This document shows positions 13,978 to 25,627 of a DNA stretch of 64,000 bases, piece after piece (positions within the stretch are counted from its first letter, which is position 1; every line of letters starts with the position of its first letter). The stretch comes from Mycoplasmatota bacterium. Lineage in GTDB: Bacteria; Bacillota_I; Bacilli_A; Izemoplasmatales; Hujiaoplasmataceae. The notes beneath the pieces are model-generated. The model was not told where the DNA came from and searched no databases. It worked only from the letters and a program-made list of their open reading frames with translations. The DNA lies in contig CP076020.1 in assembly GCA_018622675.1 (NCBI GenBank), positions 558,001 to 622,000 of the forward strand, read 5' to 3'. The position numbers and the translations under genes were made by a program.

Positions 13978-15399
13978 ATGAAAAGAAAAACAAAAATTGT
14001 ATGTACAATTGGTCCTGCAATTGATACACCAGAAATGATAGAAAAAATGATAGATGCGGGAATGAATGTGGGACGTCTTAATTTTTCACATGGAAATCAT
14101 GAGGAGCATAAAAACCGCATCACTATGATAAGATCTATTTCAAATAAACTTAATAGATATATAGGGATAATGGCTGATACTAAAGGTCCTGAAATTAGAA
14201 CAGGAGACTTTAAAGATGGTGGACAAGAGTTTACTAAGGGAGATACTGTAAAAATTGTTAAGGAACCTGTGCTTGGAACCAAAGAGTCATTTTATATTTC
14301 TTCTGAAGAAGTCTTTGAAGATGTAAGTGTAGGAGATTTCCTTTTGATTGATGACGGTAAAATGCGCTTAGACATTCAAAAGATAGAAAAAGATGGCTTA
14401 GAGTGTATTGTATGGAATTCTGGCGTTATTAAAAGCAAGAAGGGCGTTAATATTCCTAATGCTAAATTAACGATGCCATTTATTTCAGATAAAGATGCTT
14501 CTGATATTCGTTTCGCAGTTGAACAAAAAGTTGATATGATTGCCTTATCATTTGTTAGAAGAAAAAGTGATATTTTAGCTGTAAGAAATATCCTTGAAGA
14601 AATTGGTGGGCAAGATATTGAAATCATTGCTAAAATAGAAAATCAAGAAGGTGTAGATAACTTAGATGAAATTCTTGAAGTTACTGATGGTATTATGGTA
14701 GCTAGAGGTGACTTAGGAGTTGAAGTTTCAACTCAACTAGTTCCCATATATCAAAAGAAAATTATCGCTAAAGCAAATGAAGTTGGAAAACCAGTGATTA
14801 CAGCAACTCATATGTTAGAGTCAATGATGTCTTCACCAAGACCAACTAGAGCAGAAGCAAATGATGTTGCGAATGCGATTTTAGATGGTTCAGATGCAAT
14901 TATGTTATCTGGCGAAACTGCTGCAGGAGAATATCCAATAGAGTCAGTTCTAACCATGGATACCATTGCTAAAGCTATTGAAGAAACAATTGATTATAAT
15001 GTTAAACTATCAAAATCAATTAAAACATCTCATCAAACAACAAATGATGCTATAGGAATTGCTGTTAGTCAAACGGTGTTAGCATTACCTCACGCTGAAG
15101 TCATAATAGCTTTCACAGAAACAGGTGGAACTGCAAAAAGAATGGCTAAATTTAGACCAGCTGTTCCAATAATCGCCATTACTGATAGTATAGAAACTTG
15201 TCAAAGACTTTCTTATTATTGTGGTGTTTTTGCATCAATGGGCGAAAATGTTACCGATTTGAAACTCCATGATAAAGTTGCTATAAAAGTAGCAAAAGAT
15301 TTTGGCTTTAAAGTTGGAGATACATTAGTTATCACATCTGGTTGGGGTCAAAAGCATGGATATACAAATACAATGAGAATTATTGATATAGAAGAGTAG
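13978..15399 (+). CDS. pyk: Pyruvate kinase
   Basis: This 473-residue enzyme makes pyruvate and ATP from phosphoenolpyruvate and ADP, the last step of glycolysis. Visible motifs are KIVCTIGPA, NVGRLNFSHG, MADTKGPEIRTG, the active-site block IIAKIENQEGVDN, GIMVARGDLGVE and the adjacent THMLESM. It lacks the extra C-terminal PEP-utiliser-like domain of Bacillus pyruvate kinase. The ATG has AAGGAG upstream. Its natural terminator appears to be the hairpin at 24884-24910, now separated from it by the inserted composite transposon. Confidence 0.97.
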   Translation: MKRKTKIVCTIGPAIDTPEMIEKMIDAGMNVGRLNFSHGNHEEHKNRITMIRSISNKLNRYIGIMADTKGPEIRTGDFKDGGQEFTKGDTVKIVKEPVLGTKESFYISSEEVFEDVSVGDFLLIDDGKMRLDIQKIEKDGLECIVWNSGVIKSKKGVNIPNAKLTMPFISDKDASDIRFAVEQKVDMIALSFVRRKSDILAVRNILEEIGGQDIEIIAKIENQEGVDNLDEILEVTDGIMVARGDLGVEVSTQLVPIYQKKIIAKANEVGKPVITATHMLESMMSSPRPTRAEANDVANAILDGSDAIMLSGETAAGEYPIESVLTMDTIAKAIEETIDYNVKLSKSIKTSHQTTNDAIGIAVSQTVLALPHAEVIIAFTETGGTAKRMAKFRPAVPIIAITDSIETCQRLSYYCGVFASMGENVTDLKLHDKVAIKVAKDFGFKVGDTLVITSGWGQKHGYTNTMRIIDIEE

Positions 15400-15402
15400 T
15401 AT

Positions 15403-15410
15403 AAATAAAA
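15403..15410 (+). repeat. Left copy of the 8-bp target-site duplication of the composite transposon
   Basis: AAATAAAA directly abuts the outer end of the left IS copy. The same eight bases directly abut the outer end of the right IS copy. ISL3 elements typically duplicate 8 bp. The sequence is simple, so chance identity is possible but unlikely at exactly these two positions. Confidence 0.7.
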
Positions 15411-16885
15411 GGTTGAATGTCAAGGATAGGGGTCTTTGATATTTAAGAAAAGAATTTAAAGATGATATTTCGAAAGAAGTATTGTCTTTTTTCTTTTGTT
15501 TTAAAGTGAAGTAATAGGTAAATCATTATAAGTTAAGGCAAATATTCTTAATCTAAAGTGATCAAAGTTTCTATAGCCAAAAGCTATACGCTTTATCACT
15601 TTAATTTTATTGTTTAAACCTTCAATAAAGCCATTGGTTAATTGTTTCTTATCATAGGTAATAAACGAATTAATAATTTCTTCTTTCCAGTTTTTATAAG
15701 TTCTAGCGACTTTTTTAAATTCAGGTAGTTTTGATTTGTATAAATCATCGATAAATTGATTTATTACATCTCTAGCTTCAAGATAAGATGTGCTATGCAT
15801 CATTTCATAGAAGGAATCCTTTAAATCAATGGCCTTTTTCATATCGCGATCAAAGTGTCTAACCTTATCAATAATCTCTCTCGCAGTTATATGATAGCCT
15901 AGCTTATAGTCTTTAAAGTGATTAATTGATAGGTTGTAAGTATAAGCGAGTATATTCTTCCAGTATTTCTTTAGATAATGATATTCAAAAGAACCCTTTG
16001 GATATTTCTTCATGACTCTAAGTCTTACATCTTGGACAGCCCAATACATTTGTCTAATGAAGTGGTATTTATCAGCGATTAATTGAGCTTTAGGAAAGTA
16101 TTTATGTATTAATTGTCTATAGGGATCCCATAAGTCAGAAATCACGTATTTGACCTTATCACGTTCTTCTTTATCAATATGAGAGAAGTAATACTCTAAA
16201 TTGTTTTTCCTTCGATTAGGGAAGACATCGATGACTTTCTTATTGACTGGATCAGTCATTAAGAATGCATATTTACCATGACCATGAGATAAGTTCTTAA
16301 ACTCATCAATACTCAATACTTCAGGTAATCTTTGTCTTCTAGGATGAATATGTGTTTTAATATGTCTCATGACTGTATGGAAGGATATATTTAAGTGTCT
16401 TCCAACATCACTAACAGATTGTTTAAAACCATATTCTTTAATAATTAATTGTTTTGTATAATTACTGATCTTATGATACTTTCTAACAAATTGATTGTCT
16501 TCTGGAAAACGTTTTTGACAATCCTTACATAAATATCTTCGTCTTCTATAAAGTAAGATAACTTTATAACCTAGTTCGTATTGATGTTTAATCTTTCTTT
16601 CCCTGTAATCATGGACTCTCTTGGTTAAACAACCACAATGAGGACATACGTGTTCTTTAACAGGTAGTTCTAATTTAATGTACTTAGTACCTCTTACTAT
16701 AGAAATATCTTTAATGATAATATCTTCATCTTTTAAATCTAACAATTTATTGATATAATGTTTATGCATGGATAGGTCTCCTTTCGATTGGTTGTCGTTA
16801 ACTTAATTATAAAGGATTAAACCTATTCATGCACTTTTAATTTATAAACATCTTTTATTAACACCCCTAAGAAAATTATAGAACC
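15411..16885 (-). mobile_element. ISL3-family insertion sequence, left copy
   Basis: The boundaries come from where this copy and the copy at 23404 stop matching. The 1475-bp element has imperfect terminal inverted repeats of about 24 bases: both ends begin GGTT and share TAGGGGT at positions 17-23, with a variable middle. It holds a single transposase gene on the minus strand. The two copies differ in the coding region by one base (T at 16692 versus A at 24685). Near-identity implies recent transposition or gene conversion. Confidence 0.88.
15501..16769 (-). CDS. ISL3-family transposase (left copy)
   Basis: The 422-residue protein has an N-terminal zinc-finger pair (CPHCGC at 42-47, CKDC at 81-84), a helix-turn-helix region (SVSDVGRHLNISFHTVMRHI) and a DDE catalytic core with Asp155 (LSIDEF), Asp212 (SDLWDPY) and Glu383 (FIEGLNNKIK). 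This is the ISL3 layout and usual length. AAAGGAG lies before the ATG, and TATAAT within the right end could serve as its -10. Residue 26 is Arg here and Ser in the other copy. It appears intact. Its strand is opposite to the pyruvate kinase transcript that now runs into it. Confidence 0.93.
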   Translation of the reverse strand: MHKHYINKLLDLKDEDIIIKDISIVRGTKYIKLELPVKEHVCPHCGCLTKRVHDYRERKIKHQYELGYKVILLYRRRRYLCKDCQKRFPEDNQFVRKYHKISNYTKQLIIKEYGFKQSVSDVGRHLNISFHTVMRHIKTHIHPRRQRLPEVLSIDEFKNLSHGHGKYAFLMTDPVNKKVIDVFPNRRKNNLEYYFSHIDKEERDKVKYVISDLWDPYRQLIHKYFPKAQLIADKYHFIRQMYWAVQDVRLRVMKKYPKGSFEYHYLKKYWKNILAYTYNLSINHFKDYKLGYHITAREIIDKVRHFDRDMKKAIDLKDSFYEMMHSTSYLEARDVINQFIDDLYKSKLPEFKKVARTYKNWKEEIINSFITYDKKQLTNGFIEGLNNKIKVIKRIAFGYRNFDHFRLRIFALTYNDLPITSL

Positions 16886-16910
16886 TTTTTAAGCTTTAAT
16901 TTTCAAATCA

Positions 16911-16940
16911 TAGACAAATTCAAGTGATTCTTGTTATTAT
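16911..16940 (+). promoter_or_regulatory. Promoter of the DUF4301 gene at the cargo's left end
   Basis: TAGACA at 16911-16916 and an extended -10 TGTTATTAT ending at 16940 are 18 bases apart, upstream of a strong ribosome site (GGGAGG). Confidence 0.55.
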
Positions 16941-16965
16941 AGAATAAAGAATGGGAGGTAGGTAT

Positions 16966-18315
16966 ATGAACGAGTATATAAGAAAGTTTAAACAAGGCAC
17001 TCAATTCATCAATATTGTTGGACCTGTCACGAAAAACGAATTGACAGATGACCATAAAATTTCTGATGAATATTTAAAGAAAGATTGTTTAAAGTTTGTA
17101 CCTGCGAGTGGGGCTGCCACCCGCATGTTTAGAGATTTGTATGTCTATCTAAACCACCAAAAAGAAACAGACTTTATTAAAAAGTTTTTTGGTCAGTTGG
17201 AAAACTTTTCTTTTTACGAAGAAATTAAAGGGGCTGATTTTGACCGCAACCGTTTGGGTGACCGGGTTGAAATCATCAACTGTATCTTAAGAGATAAATT
17301 AAACTACGGCAAATTACCCAAAGCCTTAATTAAAATGCATGCATATGATGATTTATTTGCGACACCAATTGATGAACATATCTATGAAGGTGAACAGTAT
17401 TTAAATCCTGACCATATTAGGATTCATTTTACCATTTCTAAAGAACACGAAGATTTATTTAATGATTATGTATTAGAGGCCACCAAAGGAAAAGACAATA
17501 TTGAAATTACCTATTCATTCCAAAAAGAAGAGACCAATACCTTGGCCGTTGATATGGACAATGAGCCCATTATTAAAGAAGATGGCCAGCCTTTATTTAG
17601 GCCTGGTGGTCATGGGGCTTTAATAGAAAACCTCAATGATTTAGATGCCGATATTATTTTTATAAAAAATATTGATAATGTTTGTCATCGTTCCAAAGTC
17701 AAAGACACCATTAAATATAAGAAAAAATTAGCCTCGATTGGTTTAGACGTTAAAAAACAAATCGATAAACATATTAAGGGCTTACTATCCAATGATTATG
17801 ATTTGGATGAAGTCAATGATTTCTTAAAAGAAACTTTAAACATCTATTACATGAATGAGCTGACAAGAGACAGGGCTTTAACCTTCTTAAACAGACCATT
17901 AAAGGTTTGTGGTGTGGTTAAAAACCAAGGAGAACCTGGTGGGGGACCATTTATTGTCAATAATGGCGAATACACCGATTTACAAATCTGTGAAACTTCT
18001 GAAATTGATTTGTAACTTGATGAGAATAAGGACATATTAAGTCAATCGGCTTACTTTAATCCAGTAGACTTGGTCTGTTTTGTTAAAGATTATAAAAATG
18101 AAAAATTTAATTTATTGGATTATACCAATAATGACCGGTACTTTGTGACTGAAAAAACCTACCACGGACAAAAGATTAAGGCCATCGAACATCCTGGTTT
18201 GTGGAACGGGGCCATGCATGATTGGAATACCTTGTTTGTTGAAGTCCCATTATCGACCTTTAATCCGGTTAAAACCGTCAATGATTTATTAAGGAAGGGT
18301 CACCAAGACCATTAA
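16966..18315 (+). pseudogene. DUF4301-family protein interrupted by an in-frame stop codon
   Basis: One continuous frame of about 450 codons is broken by a single TAA at 18013-18015. The part before it has FVPASGAATRMF (a nucleotidyltransferase-like loop), FRPGGHGALIENLN and GEPGGGPF. The part after it continues the same family with SAYFNPVDLVCF, WNGAMHDWNT and FNPVKTVNDLL, in the same frame. A one-base substitution, for instance CAA to TAA, explains it. The downstream piece has no clear start of its own. DUF4301 proteins are uncharacterised and resemble sugar nucleotidyltransferases. A sequencing error or stop readthrough would restore an intact gene. Confidence 0.8.
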
Positions 18316-18330
18316 AAGCTTATATAGACC

Positions 18331-18361
18331 ATAAAACCATCAATTTGATGGTTTTATTTGC
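18331..18361 (+). terminator. Intrinsic terminator after the DUF4301 gene
   Basis: AAAACCATCAA faces TTGATGGTTTT in a near-perfect palindrome and leads into a T-rich tail. It separates the DUF4301 gene from the metal operon. Confidence 0.75.
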
Positions 18362-18374
18362 TTTTTTTAGGCTC

Positions 18375-18407
18375 ATTCATAATTCATTCATATTTGTTTA
18401 CTATAAT
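18375..18407 (+). promoter_or_regulatory. Promoter with repeated TTCAT boxes ahead of the metal-handling operon
   Basis: TATAAT at 18402-18407 is the -10. In the -35 region ATTCAT occurs at 18375 and 18382, and TTCAT again at 18387. Short direct repeats at this position are typical of OmpR-type regulator binding, and an OmpR-type regulator is encoded downstream. Binding is inferred only. Confidence 0.4.
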
Positions 18408-18428
18408 ACAGTTGAGGAAGTGAGAGAG

Positions 18429-18755
18429 ATGAAAAAAACTTATGAAAGAATATTTATCGTCTTAATAGTATTTATCGTACTAGGTCTATTGTTAAGACTG
18501 CTTGCACCAATGATTTGGGGCAATTATTATGGTGGGTATTCTAACCATATGTTTGGTGGCATGATGTTCCCTATCGGTATGCTGGGTATGGCAGCCTTTT
18601 GGCTCATTGTGATTGTCTTTGTATTTGGTTTAATTAACAAGGATGGGCAAGATGATAAGGATTCAGCCATTGAAACTTTAAAGAAAAGATTATCAAAGGG
18701 TGATATCACCATTGATGAATATGAAGAATTAAAGACAAGAATTAGAAAGGAATAA
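18429..18755 (+). CDS. Small membrane protein with C-terminal SHOCT domain
   Basis: The 108-residue protein has two membrane segments (about residues 6-24 and 45-68), joined by a Tyr/Gly/Met-rich loop with GGMMFPIGM, and ends in a SHOCT motif (LKKRLSKGDITIDEYEELK). SHOCT tails are common on small membrane proteins and often mediate oligomerisation. Similar proteins frequently accompany copper-resistance genes. The start is chosen for the purine-rich GAGGAAGTGAGAGAG directly before it; a longer frame runs into the terminator. The next gene's start overlaps its stop. Confidence 0.75.
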   Translation: MKKTYERIFIVLIVFIVLGLLLRLLAPMIWGNYYGGYSNHMFGGMMFPIGMLGMAAFWLIVIVFVFGLINKDGQDDKDSAIETLKKRLSKGDITIDEYEELKTRIRKE

Positions 18756-19192
18756 TGATGAAAAAATTTATTTTTGGAGCACTTATAGTAATCGGTGTAT
18801 TAATTGGCGGTTTAATGATTGTGAGAGGACAAGACCTTTACAGAAACAATCATTACTCACAAGATCAAACAACAGAGGATGAATCAGACTTTTATGCATG
18901 GATGCATGATGACGATACATATGGCCACATGGGTTATGGCATGATGGGTCGTAACTATGGCTCTTACGGCGCTTGTCATGGATACGATCAAGAAGAAGAA
19001 CAAGCGACTTATGAATTCTTATACAGTCATTTATCATTAGAAGACCAAGATAAAATTGATGTCTTATATGCTGAAATGCTTGATGACTATGATTTTACTA
19101 CAATGACCGAAACAGAAAAATTAGAAGCCATTGAAAGCATTAAAGATACTTTGGTGGATGAAATATTAGAAAACTATTCAAGAGGTTGGTAA
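18755..19192 (+). CDS. Membrane-anchored or secreted Met/His-rich protein, possible metal binder
   Basis: The protein is 144-145 residues, with ATG codons at 18755 and 18758. One N-terminal hydrophobic segment (about residues 5-24) acts as signal or anchor. A following extracytoplasmic region contains HDDDTYGHMGYGMMGRNYG and a nearby Cys-His pair, then a helical acidic tail with FLYSHLSLEDQDKIDVLYAE. I do not recognise a named family. Clustered His and Met in a secreted protein beside CueP and an HMA protein suggests copper binding, which is inference from composition and neighbours. Confidence 0.65.
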   Translation: MMKKFIFGALIVIGVLIGGLMIVRGQDLYRNNHYSQDQTTEDESDFYAWMHDDDTYGHMGYGMMGRNYGSYGACHGYDQEEEQATYEFLYSHLSLEDQDKIDVLYAEMLDDYDFTTMTETEKLEAIESIKDTLVDEILENYSRGW

Positions 19193-19193
19193 G

Positions 19194-19736
19194 ATGATAA
19201 AATACGTAATGATTGTGATTGCCGTATTTGGCTTAATTTTATTGGGGACTGAACTCATCGGCAATCAAAAAGAATCTACTTTATTAGAAAGCTATGGTTT
19301 TGATGAATTAAATATTGCTGAACTGATAGACAACTTAGAAAATGAAACTTATGGTTCTGAGGTACAAGCAAGCATAGGTAGAGACGCCCTTGCCCTTAAC
19401 TTAGAGGGTGAGGCTTATACATTTTCTATCCCAAATGATTTCTTCTACATATCATTTGGCCCATATATAAATTCTACTCATGAATGCTACACCCATTCTT
19501 TAACGGGTTGCCAAGGTGAACTTGCTAATGAAGACATGTTGGTTAAGATTTATGATATTAATGGAAATTTAATCCAAGAAAAAACCATGAATACTGGCGA
19601 TGACGGCTTTATTGGCCTATACCTAGATAGAAACACTGAATATACAATCCAAGTAAGCTATGAGGGTTTAAACAGTAGTTTCAAAGCCGATACAAGTGGT
19701 GACCAAACCTGCTTTACAGAGGAGCGATTAAGTTGA
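19194..19736 (+). CDS. cueP: CueP-family extracytoplasmic copper-binding protein
   Basis: The 180-residue protein has an N-terminal hydrophobic anchor (residues 3-20) and the CueP core: FYISFGPYINSTHECYTHSL, TGCQGEL, DGFIGLYLDRN and a final QTCF. Cys98, Cys106 and Cys173 correspond in spacing to the three conserved cysteines of Salmonella CueP, which binds periplasmic copper, helps supply SodC and favours reduction of Cu(II). In a Gram-positive cell it would be anchored outside the membrane. It starts one base after the previous stop, and the HMA gene overlaps its end. Confidence 0.85.
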   Translation: MIKYVMIVIAVFGLILLGTELIGNQKESTLLESYGFDELNIAELIDNLENETYGSEVQASIGRDALALNLEGEAYTFSIPNDFFYISFGPYINSTHECYTHSLTGCQGELANEDMLVKIYDINGNLIQEKTMNTGDDGFIGLYLDRNTEYTIQVSYEGLNSSFKADTSGDQTCFTEERLS

Positions 19737-19960
19737 GTTATCAAGTAAAAATTAAAGTTGATGGTATTAAATGCGGTGGATGCTTTTCACGCATCAATCG
19801 TGAAGTGTCTAAAGTTGATTTAGAGTTTTATGACATTGATCACGCCAATCAAATCGTGACCTTGTATTATGACGATGATAAGGACACTTATAAAGAAGTG
19901 ATGGAAAATATAGAAAACGCTGGTTATAAACCAACATTCCTATTCATTTCTGAAGAATAA
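19733..19960 (+). CDS. HMA-domain metallochaperone (CopZ-like)
   Basis: This 75-residue single-domain protein has the heavy-metal-associated fold, with Cys14 and Cys17 in GIKCGGC where CopZ has MxCxxC. The start is TTG, overlapping the cueP stop, with GAGG about 10 bases upstream. Such proteins carry Cu(I) in the cytoplasm and normally hand it to a P-type ATPase; none is encoded in this cargo, so the partner must lie elsewhere or the role differs. Confidence 0.8.
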   Translation: MSYQVKIKVDGIKCGGCFSRINREVSKVDLEFYDIDHANQIVTLYYDDDKDTYKEVMENIENAGYKPTFLFISEE

Positions 19961-19972
19961 AGAGGACATAAC

Positions 19973-20001
19973 TTAACTATTTATAAAAGATATATTATAA
20001 T
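19973..20001 (+). promoter_or_regulatory. Promoter of the cargo two-component system
   Basis: TTAACT at 19973-19978 and TATAAT at 19996-20001 are 17 bases apart, upstream of the response-regulator gene. Confidence 0.55.
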
Positions 20002-20021
20002 AGACTTAAGTAGGTGTTCTT

Positions 20022-20705
20022 ATGAAAATATTAATCGTTGAAGATCATTTAAAAATTAACCGGTTATTAGCGAGTTTTGCGAGGAGTGAAAATCACAGGG
20101 TTACACAGACCTATGATGTTGAATCAGCTCTAGATCAACTTGCCAACCAATCGTATGATGTCATCATCACAGATTTAATGCTGCCAAAAATGCAAGGTGA
20201 AGACTTGATTAAGGCAGTTAGAAAGATCAGTGATGTATATATTATCGTCATATCGGCCAAGGTCGATAGAGACGACAGAATAGATGTATTAAAGCTTGGG
20301 GCGGATGATTATCTCACCAAGCCTTTTTCTGTTGAAGAGGTTATGATTAAACTTAAAAATGTTGAAAGAAGAATCAACCAACAAAAACCAACCTTTTTAA
20401 GCTTTAATCAAGGTCAGTTAAAGGTCATGCCTTTAAAAAGACAAGTCACTTTTAATGAAAAATTATTAGATTTAACAAAATATGAGTATGATGTCTTGAT
20501 CTATATAATTACCAATGCAAAGCAAATATTATCAAGAGACCAGATTATTGATTATGTGTCCAATGATAGTGAAGCATTTGATCGGGTCATTGATGCATAT
20601 ATTAAAAACTTAAGAAAAAAATTAAAGGACAACCCAAAAGACCCCAAATATATTAAAACCCATTATGGGGTGGGTTATCAGTTTATAGGTGATTTAGATG
20701 ATTAG
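20022..20705 (+). CDS. OmpR/PhoB-family response regulator
   Basis: The 227-residue protein has a receiver domain with Asp51 as phosphoacceptor (VIITDLMLP), the conserved Glu-Asp near the N-terminus (IVEDH) and Lys in LTKPFS. A winged-helix DNA-binding domain ends with HYGVGYQFIG. Its stop overlaps the sensor kinase start. Placement next to cueP and the HMA gene suggests it controls the metal operon in response to copper or envelope stress (inference). ATTCAT repeats in the SHOCT promoter are a candidate target. Confidence 0.93.
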   Translation: MKILIVEDHLKINRLLASFARSENHRVTQTYDVESALDQLANQSYDVIITDLMLPKMQGEDLIKAVRKISDVYIIVISAKVDRDDRIDVLKLGADDYLTKPFSVEEVMIKLKNVERRINQQKPTFLSFNQGQLKVMPLKRQVTFNEKLLDLTKYEYDVLIYIITNAKQILSRDQIIDYVSNDSEAFDRVIDAYIKNLRKKLKDNPKDPKYIKTHYGVGYQFIGDLDD

Positions 20706-21966
20706 TTTTAAAACATTTTTTAAACAAAGAACGGTCAAGTTCTTTGTCATACTTTTTGCATCCATCTTATTATTTTCTAATATTGCCCTATATGGTGTAT
20801 CCAATTACCAATACACCCGGGAATATGAAAGAGAAATGAATGCCTATCAAGAGATGATGGAACACTTAATCACCATGGAAGATGAATCCATGGCCATTAC
20901 CTATACAGAACATTACTACCATACCCAAGGGATAAGGATTGCTTATTATAATGAAGATGACCAATTATTATATGAAACGCCTGTAGCCCCTTCATTAAAT
21001 GAAGCTTTTGCCTTATATGATGAGGATGGCAATATTATAGGTAGTGTTGTCTATGATGATCAAAGTTCAATTCTAGGAAAAGAATTATCTTATGGCTTAC
21101 TGATTTTAAATGGTTTATCAATCATACTCTTCTTAGTCTTTTTAAGATTACTTTATTGGTATTTAAACCATTCGTACCAATTACTAGAAAGTGATTTTGA
21201 AATTCTTGGTAAGAAAAGCCAAGGTTTTAATTTCTCTGATTTAGAAATCATTAGTGAAAAAATGATTGAATTGATTGAAAGCGAAAAGAGAATCCGGGCC
21301 TACCAAAAGGAATATGTAAAAATCCTAGCCCATGATATTAAAACACCTTTAACGGTCATCAAAGCTTATTTAGAAGGCATTCAATTAAATAAGTTAGAAT
21401 TTAGTGAGGCCATTAATCAGGACATGGTTCAAGAAGTTGAACAAATTGAAAAAATGATTCCGAAATTTATGACCCAAAACCCAGACTTCACCTCAACCAA
21501 ACAAAATATCAAACCCATTATTGAAAGCATCACCAAAAGATTAAAAGAAGTCTTTAAGACCAAAGACATTAAGGTCAATCAAAGTCTTGATGACTTTGAC
21601 TTAAATATTGCTTATATTGATATATCTAGAATTGTTGAAAACTTATTGTTTAATGCTTTTTATTACACCAAGGAAGGTCAGTCTATTCAAATCAAGTTAA
21701 GCAAAGAAAATCATGCTTTATTCTTTAAAGATTCAGGCATTGGTATGGACCAAGAAACCATTGAATTAATTAAGAAAGGTCCATACCGTTCAAAGAAAGC
21801 CTTTGAACTTCATGAAAAAGGATCAGGCATGGGCTTGCAAATTGTTTTTGAAATCATTGACCGTTTGGGCTATGATATTGATATCCAAAGCCAAAAAGGA
21901 AAAGGGACTCAAATCACCATCTATTTTAAAAAAGAAAAGAGTGATGAAAATGATTCAAGTATTTAA
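20698..21966 (+). CDS. Sensor histidine kinase
   Basis: The 422-residue protein has two membrane segments (about 14-34 and 132-155) enclosing a roughly 100-residue external sensor region that contains Met and His (EHYYHTQG). The phosphoacceptor is His212 in ILAHDIKTPLTV. The ATPase domain has the N box NLLFNAFYYTKEG, DSGIGM and GSGMGLQIV. It overlaps the response regulator by eight bases and the next gene by 23. The signal is unknown; copper is suggested only by context. Confidence 0.92.
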   Translation: MISFKTFFKQRTVKFFVILFASILLFSNIALYGVSNYQYTREYEREMNAYQEMMEHLITMEDESMAITYTEHYYHTQGIRIAYYNEDDQLLYETPVAPSLNEAFALYDEDGNIIGSVVYDDQSSILGKELSYGLLILNGLSIILFLVFLRLLYWYLNHSYQLLESDFEILGKKSQGFNFSDLEIISEKMIELIESEKRIRAYQKEYVKILAHDIKTPLTVIKAYLEGIQLNKLEFSEAINQDMVQEVEQIEKMIPKFMTQNPDFTSTKQNIKPIIESITKRLKEVFKTKDIKVNQSLDDFDLNIAYIDISRIVENLLFNAFYYTKEGQSIQIKLSKENHALFFKDSGIGMDQETIELIKKGPYRSKKAFELHEKGSGMGLQIVFEIIDRLGYDIDIQSQKGKGTQITIYFKKEKSDENDSSI

Positions 21967-22324
21967 AGACTTTATTCAAACAATAGAAAACAAAGATCAT
22001 CAAGAAAAATTCAAGGAATTATTGACATGGGTCAGTCAAGCCTACCCACAGTTAGAACCCGTCATTAAATGGAATCAACCCATGTTTACCCATCACGGGA
22101 CCTATATCATTGGTTTTTCTGTTTCAAAAACCCATATCGCTGTCGCTCCTGAACAAAAAACAATGCTCATGTTTAAAGATGATATCATTCGTTCAGGCTA
22201 TGGCTATGGAAAAATGATTGTTAGGTTCCCATGGGACCAAGCCATTGACTACGATTTAATTAAAAAGTTTATTGAATATAATTTTCAAGATAAAAAAGAC
22301 ACGAATTTATTTTGGAGAAAATAA
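21944..22324 (+). CDS. DUF1801/YdhG-like small protein
   Basis: The protein is about 126 residues; ATG codons at 21944 and 21950 are both possible, inside the end of the kinase gene. It matches the DUF1801 family, whose members include Bacillus Fra-like proposed iron chaperones: VIKWNQPMFTHHGTYIIGFSVSKTHIAV and a C-terminal helix with YDLIKKFIEYN. A longer frame overlapping the kinase has no ribosome site and unrelated residues. Coupling to the two-component system fits a stress or metal role, but the function is not established. Confidence 0.75.
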   Translation: MKMIQVFKDFIQTIENKDHQEKFKELLTWVSQAYPQLEPVIKWNQPMFTHHGTYIIGFSVSKTHIAVAPEQKTMLMFKDDIIRSGYGYGKMIVRFPWDQAIDYDLIKKFIEYNFQDKKDTNLFWRK

Positions 22325-22347
22325 AGTTTATTTGCGTTTTCTTTTCA

Positions 22348-22382
22348 ATAGTTATTGTTATATACAACTATTAAGATATACT
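22348..22382 (+). promoter_or_regulatory. Promoter with inverted repeat ahead of the DUF2975 gene
   Basis: TTGTTA at 22355-22360, a 16-base spacer and TATACT at 22377-22382 form a promoter. AATAGTT (22348-22354) and AACTATT (22366-22372) are an exact inverted repeat straddling the -35, a likely repressor site. Confidence 0.5.
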
Positions 22383-22403
22383 TAAGATGAAGAGGATGGT
22401 TTT

Positions 22404-22868
22404 ATGAAAGATTTCCATGTGACTTACTTAAAAATAACAACCATATTAGCTGGTTTACCCATATTGTATCTTTGCTTATATCAATTTCCTGTTCTTTTCA
22501 TTGCAGGTATGGAAAGTGATTCTGTTTACATCCCTTATTTGTTTGTACTCATGATTTCTATTTATATCATTGCTTTTCCCTATATTTTTGCTTTGATTGA
22601 AACCTTTAAAATACTACTGAATATTCAAAAGGAAAAGTATTTTAGCAAATCTACAGAAAAATCATTGAAAAATATCTGTGGATTGGCTTATTTGATTGCT
22701 TTTATATTATTCTTGGATTTACCTTTTATCTATAGGATTGCAAATATGGATGACGCACCTGGTTTGATTGTTATTGGTTTGTTTTTTATGATGTTTACTT
22801 TATCCATTGGTGTCTTTGCTGGCTTACTAAAAAGAATAGTAACTAAGCAATTACAACAAGATGAATAA
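22404..22868 (+). CDS. DUF2975-family membrane protein
   Basis: The 154-residue protein has four predicted membrane segments, with the DUF2975 signature in the second half of the first cytoplasmic loop (FSKSTEKSLKNICGLAYLI). The function of the family is unknown; it is usually adjacent to a small Cro/C1-type repressor (YozG-like), which is missing here. The next gene's frame begins close to its stop and its ribosome site follows immediately, so the two membrane genes form an operon. Confidence 0.75.
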   Translation: MKDFHVTYLKITTILAGLPILYLCLYQFPVLFIAGMESDSVYIPYLFVLMISIYIIAFPYIFALIETFKILLNIQKEKYFSKSTEKSLKNICGLAYLIAFILFLDLPFIYRIANMDDAPGLIVIGLFFMMFTLSIGVFAGLLKRIVTKQLQQDE

Positions 22869-22884
22869 ATATAGGAGGAAAAAA

Positions 22885-23388
22885 ATGTTAAAAAAGTATA
22901 GTAAATCTTTACCTTTATTAACAATTGTTTTTGCAATACTAATTGCACTAATGATGATCTTTTCAGTGTTAAGAACAGATGATGGTGATAGCATCATGTC
23001 TGGTATTACTGCCGTCTTCGGTGGAGAAGTTGGATCTATTGGGGATTTTGTTTCTGTCAATGTTAGCTTTAACTTAGCGGTATTTTTCGCTTTTCTATTA
23101 CCACTCATATTTACCCTAGTATTTCTTGTTTTAACCAAAAATCAAAAATACTCAAACAGCATGAGGGTATTATTCAATGTCTTAATCTTAGTCAGTTTCA
23201 TATACTCTTTAATTGTCTTTTTAAATCTTGGTATGTATACTGAAGGAACCACGACTATTTTTGGTGGGACCGTCACTTATTCATATGAAGGGGCGCGTTT
23301 AGGATTTGGAACTATTCTAGCAATTGTCTTTAGCATTGGTGGCATAATTACCTCAGGGTTGAATACCTTTTCATTGGTTTCAAAATAA
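22885..23388 (+). CDS. Four-TM membrane protein of unknown function
   Basis: The 167-residue protein has four hydrophobic segments (about 9-27, 60-81, 90-110, 140-163). I do not recognise a family. An exact AGGAGG five bases before the chosen ATG decides the start; an earlier ATG would overlap the upstream gene and swallow this site. It is the last cargo gene, ending 15 bases before the right IS copy, and has no terminator of its own. Confidence 0.65.
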   Translation: MLKKYSKSLPLLTIVFAILIALMMIFSVLRTDDGDSIMSGITAVFGGEVGSIGDFVSVNVSFNLAVFFAFLLPLIFTLVFLVLTKNQKYSNSMRVLFNVLILVSFIYSLIVFLNLGMYTEGTTTIFGGTVTYSYEGARLGFGTILAIVFSIGGIITSGLNTFSLVSK

Positions 23389-23403
23389 AACTATATATAT
23401 ATT

Positions 23404-24878
23404 GGTTGAATGTCAAGGATAGGGGTCTTTGATATTTAAGAAAAGAATTTAAAGATGATATTTCGAAAGAAGTATTGTCTTTTTTCTTTTGTTTTAAAGT
23501 GAAGTAATAGGTAAATCATTATAAGTTAAGGCAAATATTCTTAATCTAAAGTGATCAAAGTTTCTATAGCCAAAAGCTATACGCTTTATCACTTTAATTT
23601 TATTGTTTAAACCTTCAATAAAGCCATTGGTTAATTGTTTCTTATCATAGGTAATAAACGAATTAATAATTTCTTCTTTCCAGTTTTTATAAGTTCTAGC
23701 GACTTTTTTAAATTCAGGTAGTTTTGATTTGTATAAATCATCGATAAATTGATTTATTACATCTCTAGCTTCAAGATAAGATGTGCTATGCATCATTTCA
23801 TAGAAGGAATCCTTTAAATCAATGGCCTTTTTCATATCGCGATCAAAGTGTCTAACCTTATCAATAATCTCTCTCGCAGTTATATGATAGCCTAGCTTAT
23901 AGTCTTTAAAGTGATTAATTGATAGGTTGTAAGTATAAGCGAGTATATTCTTCCAGTATTTCTTTAGATAATGATATTCAAAAGAACCCTTTGGATATTT
24001 CTTCATGACTCTAAGTCTTACATCTTGGACAGCCCAATACATTTGTCTAATGAAGTGGTATTTATCAGCGATTAATTGAGCTTTAGGAAAGTATTTATGT
24101 ATTAATTGTCTATAGGGATCCCATAAGTCAGAAATCACGTATTTGACCTTATCACGTTCTTCTTTATCAATATGAGAGAAGTAATACTCTAAATTGTTTT
24201 TCCTTCGATTAGGGAAGACATCGATGACTTTCTTATTGACTGGATCAGTCATTAAGAATGCATATTTACCATGACCATGAGATAAGTTCTTAAACTCATC
24301 AATACTCAATACTTCAGGTAATCTTTGTCTTCTAGGATGAATATGTGTTTTAATATGTCTCATGACTGTATGGAAGGATATATTTAAGTGTCTTCCAACA
24401 TCACTAACAGATTGTTTAAAACCATATTCTTTAATAATTAATTGTTTTGTATAATTACTGATCTTATGATACTTTCTAACAAATTGATTGTCTTCTGGAA
24501 AACGTTTTTGACAATCCTTACATAAATATCTTCGTCTTCTATAAAGTAAGATAACTTTATAACCTAGTTCGTATTGATGTTTAATCTTTCTTTCCCTGTA
24601 ATCATGGACTCTCTTGGTTAAACAACCACAATGAGGACATACGTGTTCTTTAACAGGTAGTTCTAATTTAATGTACTTAGTACCACTTACTATAGAAATA
24701 TCTTTAATGATAATATCTTCATCTTTTAAATCTAACAATTTATTGATATAATGTTTATGCATGGATAGGTCTCCTTTCGATTGGTTGTCGTTAACTTAAT
24801 TATAAAGGATTAAACCTATTCATGCACTTTTAATTTATAAACATCTTTTATTAACACCCCTAAGAAAATTATAGAACC
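23404..24878 (-). mobile_element. ISL3-family insertion sequence, right copy
   Basis: The length is the same 1475 bp as the left copy, in the same orientation, with the same GGTT...TAGGGGT ends. By eye the sequences match apart from A at 24685 instead of T. The outer flank is AAATAAAA, the inner flank TATATATT. Confidence 0.88.
23494..24762 (-). CDS. ISL3-family transposase (right copy)
   Basis: It is identical in protein sequence to the left-copy transposase except Ser26 for Arg26. The zinc-finger cysteines and the DDE residues (Asp155, Asp212, Glu383) are intact, so either copy could drive transposition of the unit. ISL3 elements move by cut-and-paste with 8-bp target duplications. Confidence 0.93.
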   Translation of the reverse strand: MHKHYINKLLDLKDEDIIIKDISIVSGTKYIKLELPVKEHVCPHCGCLTKRVHDYRERKIKHQYELGYKVILLYRRRRYLCKDCQKRFPEDNQFVRKYHKISNYTKQLIIKEYGFKQSVSDVGRHLNISFHTVMRHIKTHIHPRRQRLPEVLSIDEFKNLSHGHGKYAFLMTDPVNKKVIDVFPNRRKNNLEYYFSHIDKEERDKVKYVISDLWDPYRQLIHKYFPKAQLIADKYHFIRQMYWAVQDVRLRVMKKYPKGSFEYHYLKKYWKNILAYTYNLSINHFKDYKLGYHITAREIIDKVRHFDRDMKKAIDLKDSFYEMMHSTSYLEARDVINQFIDDLYKSKLPEFKKVARTYKNWKEEIINSFITYDKKQLTNGFIEGLNNKIKVIKRIAFGYRNFDHFRLRIFALTYNDLPITSL

Positions 24879-24886
24879 AAATAAAA
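24879..24886 (+). repeat. Right copy of the 8-bp target-site duplication
   Basis: AAATAAAA directly follows the outer end of the right IS copy, matching the eight bases before the left copy. Confidence 0.7.
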
Positions 24887-24910
24887 AAAGAAGACTTAGT
24901 CTTCTTTTTT
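24884..24910. terminator. Bidirectional terminator, originally shared by pyk and the PAP2 gene
   Basis: GAAGAC and GTCTTC around a three-base centre are flanked by A and T runs on both sides, so the hairpin works in either direction. It overlaps the stop of the minus-strand PAP2 gene. Removing the transposon and one target repeat puts it about 20 bases after the pyk stop. Confidence 0.8.
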
Positions 24911-25627
24911 TTGTAGATTAAATTTAAAATTAAGTTTTGTAAATATATGGCCAAAAAATTTATGTATTTTAAATTTTAATACTATCCAATAAAGACCCTC
25001 AGTTAATATTACTCCAACAATCAAGTCGATAATATAATGCTGCTTTAATGTCTGTGTAGCGATGATAATCATCAATGCTAATATATAAATGATGATCTTA
25101 TTTACTTTTGGCATATTCTTATCAAGTCTAGCACCAATAATCGCTATCCAACTAGAAATGGTATGCATAGAAGGTAAAGCGTTTCTTGGACCAGCAGACT
25201 GATAAATCCACATCACAATTTTTTCGGTAAAATTCAAATCTGTTCTAGGCATAGAGTAGTTACCATCTATGAATAATCCAGATGTTACTCTCCAAGCTTC
25301 AACATCAGATTGCCAAAAGAAATACCATATACCACAAATTGTAAAAGCGATAATAGCAATAGCTGAAATGATGAACATATTTCTTTGTGATCGATATCCT
25401 ACATATAAAAAAGTAAAAAACCAAAATGGATAAGCGATAATATAAGGATAAATGTGCCAACTAATAAATGGTACACTATCATTAAAACCTTTAAATATAT
25501 AACTGTAATCGACTCCTGGATTACCAAAAGTATCTGCATACCATTGATTACCAAAATATGTTATCAACAAAAATAGCATAACAATGGCCATTGGGATTAT
25601 TGTTTTTTTTAGTTTAGTTGTATCCAT
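24896..25627 (-). CDS. PAP2-superfamily membrane phosphatase
   Basis: This 243-residue protein has about six membrane segments and the PAP2 core: PRNALPSMHTISSW, containing the conserved PSxH, and a later TLKQHYIIDLIVG with the catalytic His and the following Asp. Family members dephosphorylate phosphatidic acid, phosphatidylglycerophosphate, undecaprenyl pyrophosphate or related lipids at the membrane surface; the substrate here cannot be told. AGGAGG stands before the ATG. It is convergent with pyk. Confidence 0.82.
   Translation of the reverse strand: MDTTKLKKTIIPMAIVMLFLLITYFGNQWYADTFGNPGVDYSYIFKGFNDSVPFISWHIYPYIIAYPFWFFTFLYVGYRSQRNMFIISAIAIIAFTICGIWYFFWQSDVEAWRVTSGLFIDGNYSMPRTDLNFTEKIVMWIYQSAGPRNALPSMHTISSWIAIIGARLDKNMPKVNKIIIYILALMIIIATQTLKQHYIIDLIVGVILTEGLYWIVLKFKIHKFFGHIFTKLNFKFNLQKKED

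Follow-up and report, generated by a model that had tools for sequence, protein, structure and literature searches.

The window analysed here, 64,000 nucleotides of contig CP076020.1 (positions 558,001 to 622,000) of a Mycoplasmatota bacterium from the family Hujiaoplasmataceae, carries a 9.47-kb unit behind the pyruvate kinase gene pyk, in which two copies of an insertion sequence (IS), IS-L and IS-R, bound 6518 bp of cargo that includes a gene for a CueP-family copper-binding protein (Table 1). A preliminary description had reported two direct 1475-bp copies with one differing base, and alignment of the copies bears this out: the single difference lies at IS position 1282 (window 16692 T versus 24685 A) and replaces R by S at residue 26 of the transposase. 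Also as described, the same 8-mer, AAATAAAA, stands outside both copies, and the inner flanks differ (TTTTTAAG versus TATATATT). The locus thus has the make-up of a composite transposon, with two copies of one IS around cargo unrelated to transposition and a single target duplication enclosing the entire unit, neither IS having a duplication of its own. The earlier assignment to the ISL3 family stands as well. The IS-L transposase passes the ISL3 models PF01610, PF14690 and NF033550 (305.7 bits against a cut-off of 180), it is an ISL3-type DDE transposase with an N-terminal zinc ribbon, and the element has imperfect terminal inverted repeats (GGTTGAATGTC/GGTTCTATAAT) together with the 8-bp duplication. 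The IS-R transposase is identical save for the one residue.

The host genome, a single contig of 1.648 Mb, yields 12 DNA matches to the IS, namely the two composite copies, eight further full copies and two fragments. The eight resident full copies form two groups only two bases apart, and all are 87% identical (13% diverged) to the composite copies, with 189-192 differences spread along the element. Every one of these single full copies (8/8) is flanked by a separate perfect 8-bp duplication, and 8 bp can therefore be taken as the signature of the IS group. No solitary copy of the composite's IS subtype was found elsewhere in the genome. At position 1282, IS-L shares its base with a representative of each of the two resident groups and with the single full copy of genome G004, and the derived base likely belongs to IS-R; residue 26 is variable across 28 aligned transposases. 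One of the fragments (L011, G000:C1:1108442-1108526), which matches the IS left end over 85 nt at 77% identity, is an IS remnant or a small derivative.

The shared outer 8-mer had been read beforehand as the mark of a unit that moved as one. Two random 8-mers of the window match with a probability of about 8.5e-5, and this rises to about 0.004-0.009 given the A/T-rich target bias of the IS group. Among 90 non-cognate pairs of left and right flanks from the 10 full copies, only the composite outer pair matches. With a chance of 0.4-0.9% at A/T-rich targets, the identity is suggestive but less than decisive, and we rejected it as proof by itself. The same figure is what could be said for two independent insertions around a resident gene block whose outer 8-mers match by chance, an account that we regard as very improbable. 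It would require the cargo to have been at this place before, and in 4/4 same-genus genomes it is not there; neither composite copy has its own duplication, whereas the eight other full copies do; and homologues of the cargo lie elsewhere in relatives, the host itself keeping an intact DUF4301 gene at 972 kb.

Empty sites, to which the preliminary description had pointed as a check, are present in all four same-genus genomes, where pyk and a PAP2-family gene are adjacent, separated by a hairpin and free of any insert. In the sister species G002, whose pyk product is 92% identical, the junction reads TAG GGC AAACAAAA AGAAGACTTAGTCTTC; removing the unit from the window while keeping one 8-mer gives TAG TAT AAATAAAA AAAGAAGACTTAGTCTTC. 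The related 8-mer AAACAAAA occurs once in G002, directly before the hairpin, with a run of A that is two A shorter, and the pyk-side hairpin of the window is itself present in this empty site. The outer duplication, the four empty sites and the lack of a solitary subtype copy in the genome all support movement of the unit as one.

We also considered that a single foreign ISL3 copy might first have inserted at the pyk terminator and that recombination with it then brought in a circle, or translocatable unit, made up of a further IS copy and the cargo. Such a history predicts outer and inner flanks identical to those left by unit transposition, and homologous recombination is deemed more plausible for the liaSR unit of Enterococcus faecium, which has a shared neighbourhood, in PMC9484755 (statements on this and the other papers cited by PMC number refer to the available portions of their text). 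It would need two arrivals of the same subtype, which was not met as a solitary copy in the genome, and nothing in the composite copies suggests a mosaic with resident ones, their differences from the one resident copy compared running along the whole element. We hold this route to be unlikely. Three things weigh against a unit transposition, namely the indistinguishable flank pattern, the chance level of the 8-mer match at A/T-rich targets and a whole-unit search of plasmid and phage records that gave no match and no vector. On balance we nevertheless think it probable that two ISL3 copies and the predicted copper-response genes between them, derived from a related species, transposed as a unit and entered the predicted pyk terminator at its foot, unit transposition being the better reading than recombination. 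That the arrival was recent, as had been suggested, is supported in part: there is one difference per 1475 bp, and one cargo gene has acquired an in-frame stop, which speaks the other way.

The preliminary description named the hairpin at the pyk site and missed terminators as a habitual target of the element. When we rejoined the flanks at nine full insertions of the host genome (the singles L003-L010 and the composite, with the fragments L011 and L012 left out), a terminator-like hairpin stood beside each. With a strict detector (stem of at least 7 with at least 2 G/C pairs, and T or A at 6 of the 8 positions next to the core), a hairpin lay within 4 nt of the duplication at 8/9 sites and within 17 nt at 9/9. 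The same nine 8-mers elsewhere in the genome had one within 4 nt in 47/1361 cases (3.5%), or 24/199 (12%) when intergenic (Fisher, 3.5e-11 and 1.1e-6, respectively). For A/T-rich 8-mers drawn at random from 384 kb of the genome the rate was 1.8-3.2% within 3-6 nt, and for intergenic A/T-rich ones it was 5.5-7.6% within 4 nt. A relaxed RNAfold hairpin detector found hairpins within 4 nt at 8/9 own sites and 21/28 other sites; because its null rate was 13-15% it was dropped, and the strict detector was used for all claims.

To these we added ISL3 insertions from other genomes of the class, taking 60 loci in 19 genomes, hand-chosen among the matches listed. Set 1 comprises 28 sites in 10 genomes with perfect duplications by a first end-finder, and set 2 contains 16 more in 5 genomes with perfect duplications after the copies had been aligned; 16 of the 60 loci were dropped, their ends not being found or no perfect duplication being present, among them L281 and L284, each showing a strict hairpin at a distance of 0 nt. 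For set 3, with criteria fixed before sequence analysis, 21 copies in 20 stretches gave 15 sites in 3 further genomes, the 6 dropped including two copies of a composite in G492. The total is 59 duplicated sites in 18 genomes. The right ends of the five G499 copies were picked by their match to the left duplication, and G315, G350, G345, G318 and G486 gave no usable site. Insertions that by eye resemble insertions into a hairpin loop (L266, L272, L274 and L326, for example) were left uncounted. A strict hairpin lies within 4 nt at 13/28, 4/16 and 6/15 sites of sets 1, 2 and 3 (23/59), compared with 120/1729, 14/628 and 6/361 for the same 8-mers nearby (1.7-6.9%; Fisher, 2.1e-8, 6.3e-4 and 1.1e-6), and within 17 nt at 16, 7 and 8 sites (31/59). 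Against intergenic occurrences of the same 8-mers (93/682, 13.6%), the excess in set 1 has a Fisher value of 4.9e-5. The ISL3 elements at L310-L321 (G473 and G470) are 2.4-2.5 kb, longer than a transposase alone needs, and most of them have perfect 8-bp duplications.

Several observations weigh against a general preference for terminators. The sites were chosen by hand, mostly in multi-copy genomes; the intergenic control covers the host genome and set 1, sets 2 and 3 having the control without the intergenic restriction; 28/59 duplicated sites of other genomes have no strict hairpin within 17 nt; 7/68 sites overall lie inside predicted genes; and the sole full copy of G004 has unequal flanks (TAAAAACA/TAAAATAT), its end being 11 nt away from a strict hairpin. 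At a right-end remnant in the same genome the strict hairpin is 28 nt away.

The insertions are also polar. When the elements are oriented so that the transposase is on the minus strand, and genes are taken from crude open reading frame calls, the nearest left gene reads into the IS at 54/61 intergenic sites (9/9 own, then 19/24, 14/15 and 12/13 in sets 1, 2 and 3). Only tandem contexts are informative here, because convergent gene pairs give this polarity by construction, and these divide 2:0, 10:2, 7:1 and 5:0, or 24:3 in all (p 4.9e-5). The polarity bears on a further alternative, in which an A/T-tract preference, or selection against insertions in genes, produces the link with terminators as a by-product. 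Targets are indeed A/T-rich, many with runs of A or T, and the control rates do climb in intergenic DNA, from 3.5% to 12% in the host and from 6.9% to 13.6% in set 1. Even so, the intergenic same-8-mer rates fall well below the 8/9 and 13/28 observed, with the Fisher values given above, and a 24:3 polarity is not obviously expected from tract preference alone. We consider a by-product improbable, and the association suggests recognition of terminator DNA by the transposase.

The end of the IS that faces the neighbouring gene is itself structured. Read in the direction of that gene, the first 95 nt are predicted to fold into two consecutive hairpins followed by a T-rich tract, with -33 kcal/mol and z -8.05 on the plus strand versus -10 and z -2.31 on the minus strand. 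In the gene direction, z is -7.94 for the resident subtype and -6.85 for the G004 copy; over 120 nt the other strand also reaches z -3.9 in these two. Both named helices pair in 87/87 cells of the alignment, which has three distinct rows. Four one-sided changes keep the pairing and none is two-sided, and with three rows 500/500 shuffles score as high, which makes the shuffle control uninformative and the support from these changes weak. Among 18 left ends from other genomes, z is -3 or lower in 11 in the gene direction and in 7 on the other strand. From these folds, the left end would likely provide a replacement terminator for the neighbouring gene. In G013, six listed places (L039, L042, L044 and L046 among them) share the first 23 bp of the IS exactly; at the four loci fetched the stretch stops about 70-150 bp past the element start, and the interior of the element is probably not assembled.

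The cargo genes are all on the strand of pyk. The CueP-family gene is the sole CueP match in the host genome, and the PDB chain that its product matches, 4gqz, we take to be Salmonella CueP. Together with the heavy-metal-associated domain protein and the two-component genes, these protein families suggest that the cargo serves a copper response. The host has a second set of the DUF1801, DUF2975 and last cargo genes at 935 kb. In G002, the block from the SHOCT-domain gene to the histidine kinase gene is 79% identical to the cargo at the DNA level with gene order kept; the 6.6-kb contig that carries it also holds a DUF1801 remnant and the last gene at 72%, and DUF4301 (82% DNA identity) is on a separate 4.2-kb contig. 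In G004, DUF4301, DUF1801 and a DUF2975 relative stand side by side. Homology to G002 on the left starts at cargo base 2, and because the matching point in G002 directly follows a terminator-like hairpin that belongs to a degV-family gene, the left inner edge of the cargo, at least, also appears to be a terminator site. Behind the last-gene homologue the G002 DNA is dissimilar, and the first clear hairpin by eye comes further on. A scan of genome contigs with the transposase confirmed no relative, and a CueP protein search gave a best relative, besides the window's own, of 77%. After the plasmid, phage, transposase and CueP searches we rejected a named donor; as these gave no match, or 77% at best for CueP, G002 is the closest source seen, and the donor was presumably close to it. 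Separately, a pyruvate kinase gene is found on a record titled as a plasmid of Tenericutes bacterium MO-XQ (L119, CP017949.1).

Table 1. Features of the composite transposon and its target site (positions in the window)
Feature	Position	Strand	Remarks
pyk (pyruvate kinase), target-side gene reading into the transposon	13978..15399	+	PF00224 2.3e-132; orthologues in 4/4 genus relatives, 81-92% amino acid identity
Left outer 8-bp target duplication AAATAAAA	15403..15410	.	
IS-L, 1475-bp ISL3 element, GG...CC ends	15411..16885	-	87% identical to 8 resident full copies
Predicted terminator at IS-L left end, tandem hairpins then T-rich tract, pyk direction	15413..15489	+	also in IS-R
IS-L transposase, 422 aa (amino acids)	15501..16769	-	PF01610 3.1e-58; NF033550
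Cargo, 6518 bp, inner flanks TTTTTAAG / TATATATT	16886..23403	.	
DUF4301 gene	16951..18315	+	in-frame stop 18013-18015; intact relatives in G002 and elsewhere in host genome
SHOCT-domain small protein	18429..18755	+	PF09851
145-aa small protein	18755..19192	+	without Pfam or NCBIfam match
CueP-family copper-binding protein	19194..19736	+	PF21172 2.2e-35; NF038094; PDB 4gqz 4.4e-28
HMA (heavy-metal-associated) domain protein	19733..19960	+	PF00403 2e-10
Response regulator, C-terminal DNA-binding domain	20022..20705	+	PF00072, PF00486
Sensor histidine kinase	20698..21966	+	PF02518, PF00512
DUF1801 protein	21950..22324	+	PF08818
DUF2975 protein	22404..22868	+	PF11188
167-aa hydrophobic protein without family	22885..23388	+	stop codon 15 nt before IS-R start
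IS-R, 1475-bp ISL3 element	23404..24878	-	
IS-R transposase, 422 aa	23494..24762	-	full-length relatives
Right outer 8-bp target duplication AAATAAAA	24879..24886	.	
Predicted pyk-side intrinsic terminator, hairpin GAAGACTTAGTCTTC and T-tract	24890..24912	+	3 nt from duplication
PAP2 gene	24896-25627	-	3' end overlapped by predicted pyk terminator 24890..24912

A second ISL3 composite occurs in G492 (L309 5619-17425), where two identical 1473-bp copies in direct orientation bound a unit of 11,807 bp with AAAATTCT on both outer sides and different inner flanks. Its cargo includes a PRD-domain protein, mannose/sorbose-type phosphotransferase system (PTS) subunits, an SIS protein and an amidohydrolase. 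The strict detector gave no hairpin at the outer site, where inspection by eye shows an adjoining hairpin of 6-bp stem and 12-nt loop, and one inner edge has a clear terminator-like hairpin.

These observations can be arranged into a likely history of the copper unit. In a donor near G002, one ISL3 copy would have occupied the terminator of the degV-family gene and another would have followed the stop codon of the small hydrophobic-protein gene, so that the two bracketed DUF4301 and the CueP, HMA and two-component genes. The transposase would then have used the two outermost ends of the IS-cargo-IS unit, and an 8-bp staggered cut in the A-tract of the pyk terminator would have admitted the whole unit and duplicated AAATAAAA. 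In doing so the unit would use the same type of site and the same orientation as the single copies: transcription of the neighbouring gene would enter the IS at its left end, and the tandem hairpins there are predicted to take over from the displaced terminator. More broadly, we suggest, as a tentative proposal that is quite possible but short of probable, that ISL3 elements are terminator-swapping transposons. They would home in a polar manner to intrinsic terminators, land between stop codon and hairpin, and supply a new terminator from their left end. Since the majority of copies lie between transcription units, neighbouring copies would bracket whole operons, which could then move from terminator to terminator with their genes unbroken; the copper unit and the PTS unit of G492 would be examples. 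A rule of polar insertion at transcription terminators is indicated for at least part of the ISL3 family, and it would explain both how copy numbers become high with little gene damage and why composites can carry intact operons. This polar insertion, possibly with a structured end that replaces the terminator, is a more valuable result than the composite itself.

Polar insertion at a terminator has a precedent in Tn7, which inserts just behind glmS at its terminator by means of a dedicated target selector and at one site. The ISL3 group described here differs in having one transposase gene and many terminators. We found no statement of terminator targeting by ISL3 elements in the open-licence literature as far as its available text goes, and the available portions of PMC10266640, PMC6382973 and PMC10100801 hold nothing further on targeting. 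Two ISL3 transposons with metal-related cargo are described, Tn7546 of Staphylococcus hominis (PMC9782665; mercury cargo, 8-bp duplication) and ISPpu12a of Pseudomonas (PMC4133298; a putative divalent heavy-metal antiporter). They share with the present unit an ISL3 transposase and this type of cargo; unlike it, they are single-element transposons and not two IS around a cargo.

Closer in architecture is the pseudo-compound structure around liaSR in E. faecium, in which two direct ISL3 elements surround a chromosomal gene block (PMC9484755). That paper states that such structures were previously undescribed for the ISL3 family, in agreement with the earlier remark that ISL3 composites are rarely documented, and it leaves target duplications to further work. 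The copper unit differs in its outer 8-bp duplication, the empty sites in relatives and an apparently foreign cargo, and it provides evidence at the level of the duplication that an ISL3-bounded block can move as one, the point left open there.

For the target, the nearest likeness is a vanHAX insertion in E. faecium, where ISL3-associated DNA lies inside a putative rho-independent terminator of an rRNA operon with an 8-bp duplication (PMC11702846). It resembles our unit in the duplication, the terminator insertion and an ISL3 element at one end. It differs in that a single site is concerned, the only ISL3 copy named is the one at the 3' end and the mechanism is uncharacterised; general terminator targeting is not proposed in the available text of that report. 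TnSha1 and IS1272 (IS1182 family, Staphylococcus; PMC4923244) offer an IS-based, hairpin-targeting unit with a chromosomal gene from a related species, and several of the hairpins targeted by IS1272 are confirmed terminators. An insertion of the IS1272 type was rejected for the present sites, which have perfect 8-bp duplications at 8/8 single copies and a hairpin beside 9/9. IS1272 removes a portion of the stem without duplicating its target and apparently has no orientation preference, whereas the ISL3 group makes an 8-bp duplication, inserts in a polar manner and has a structured left end.

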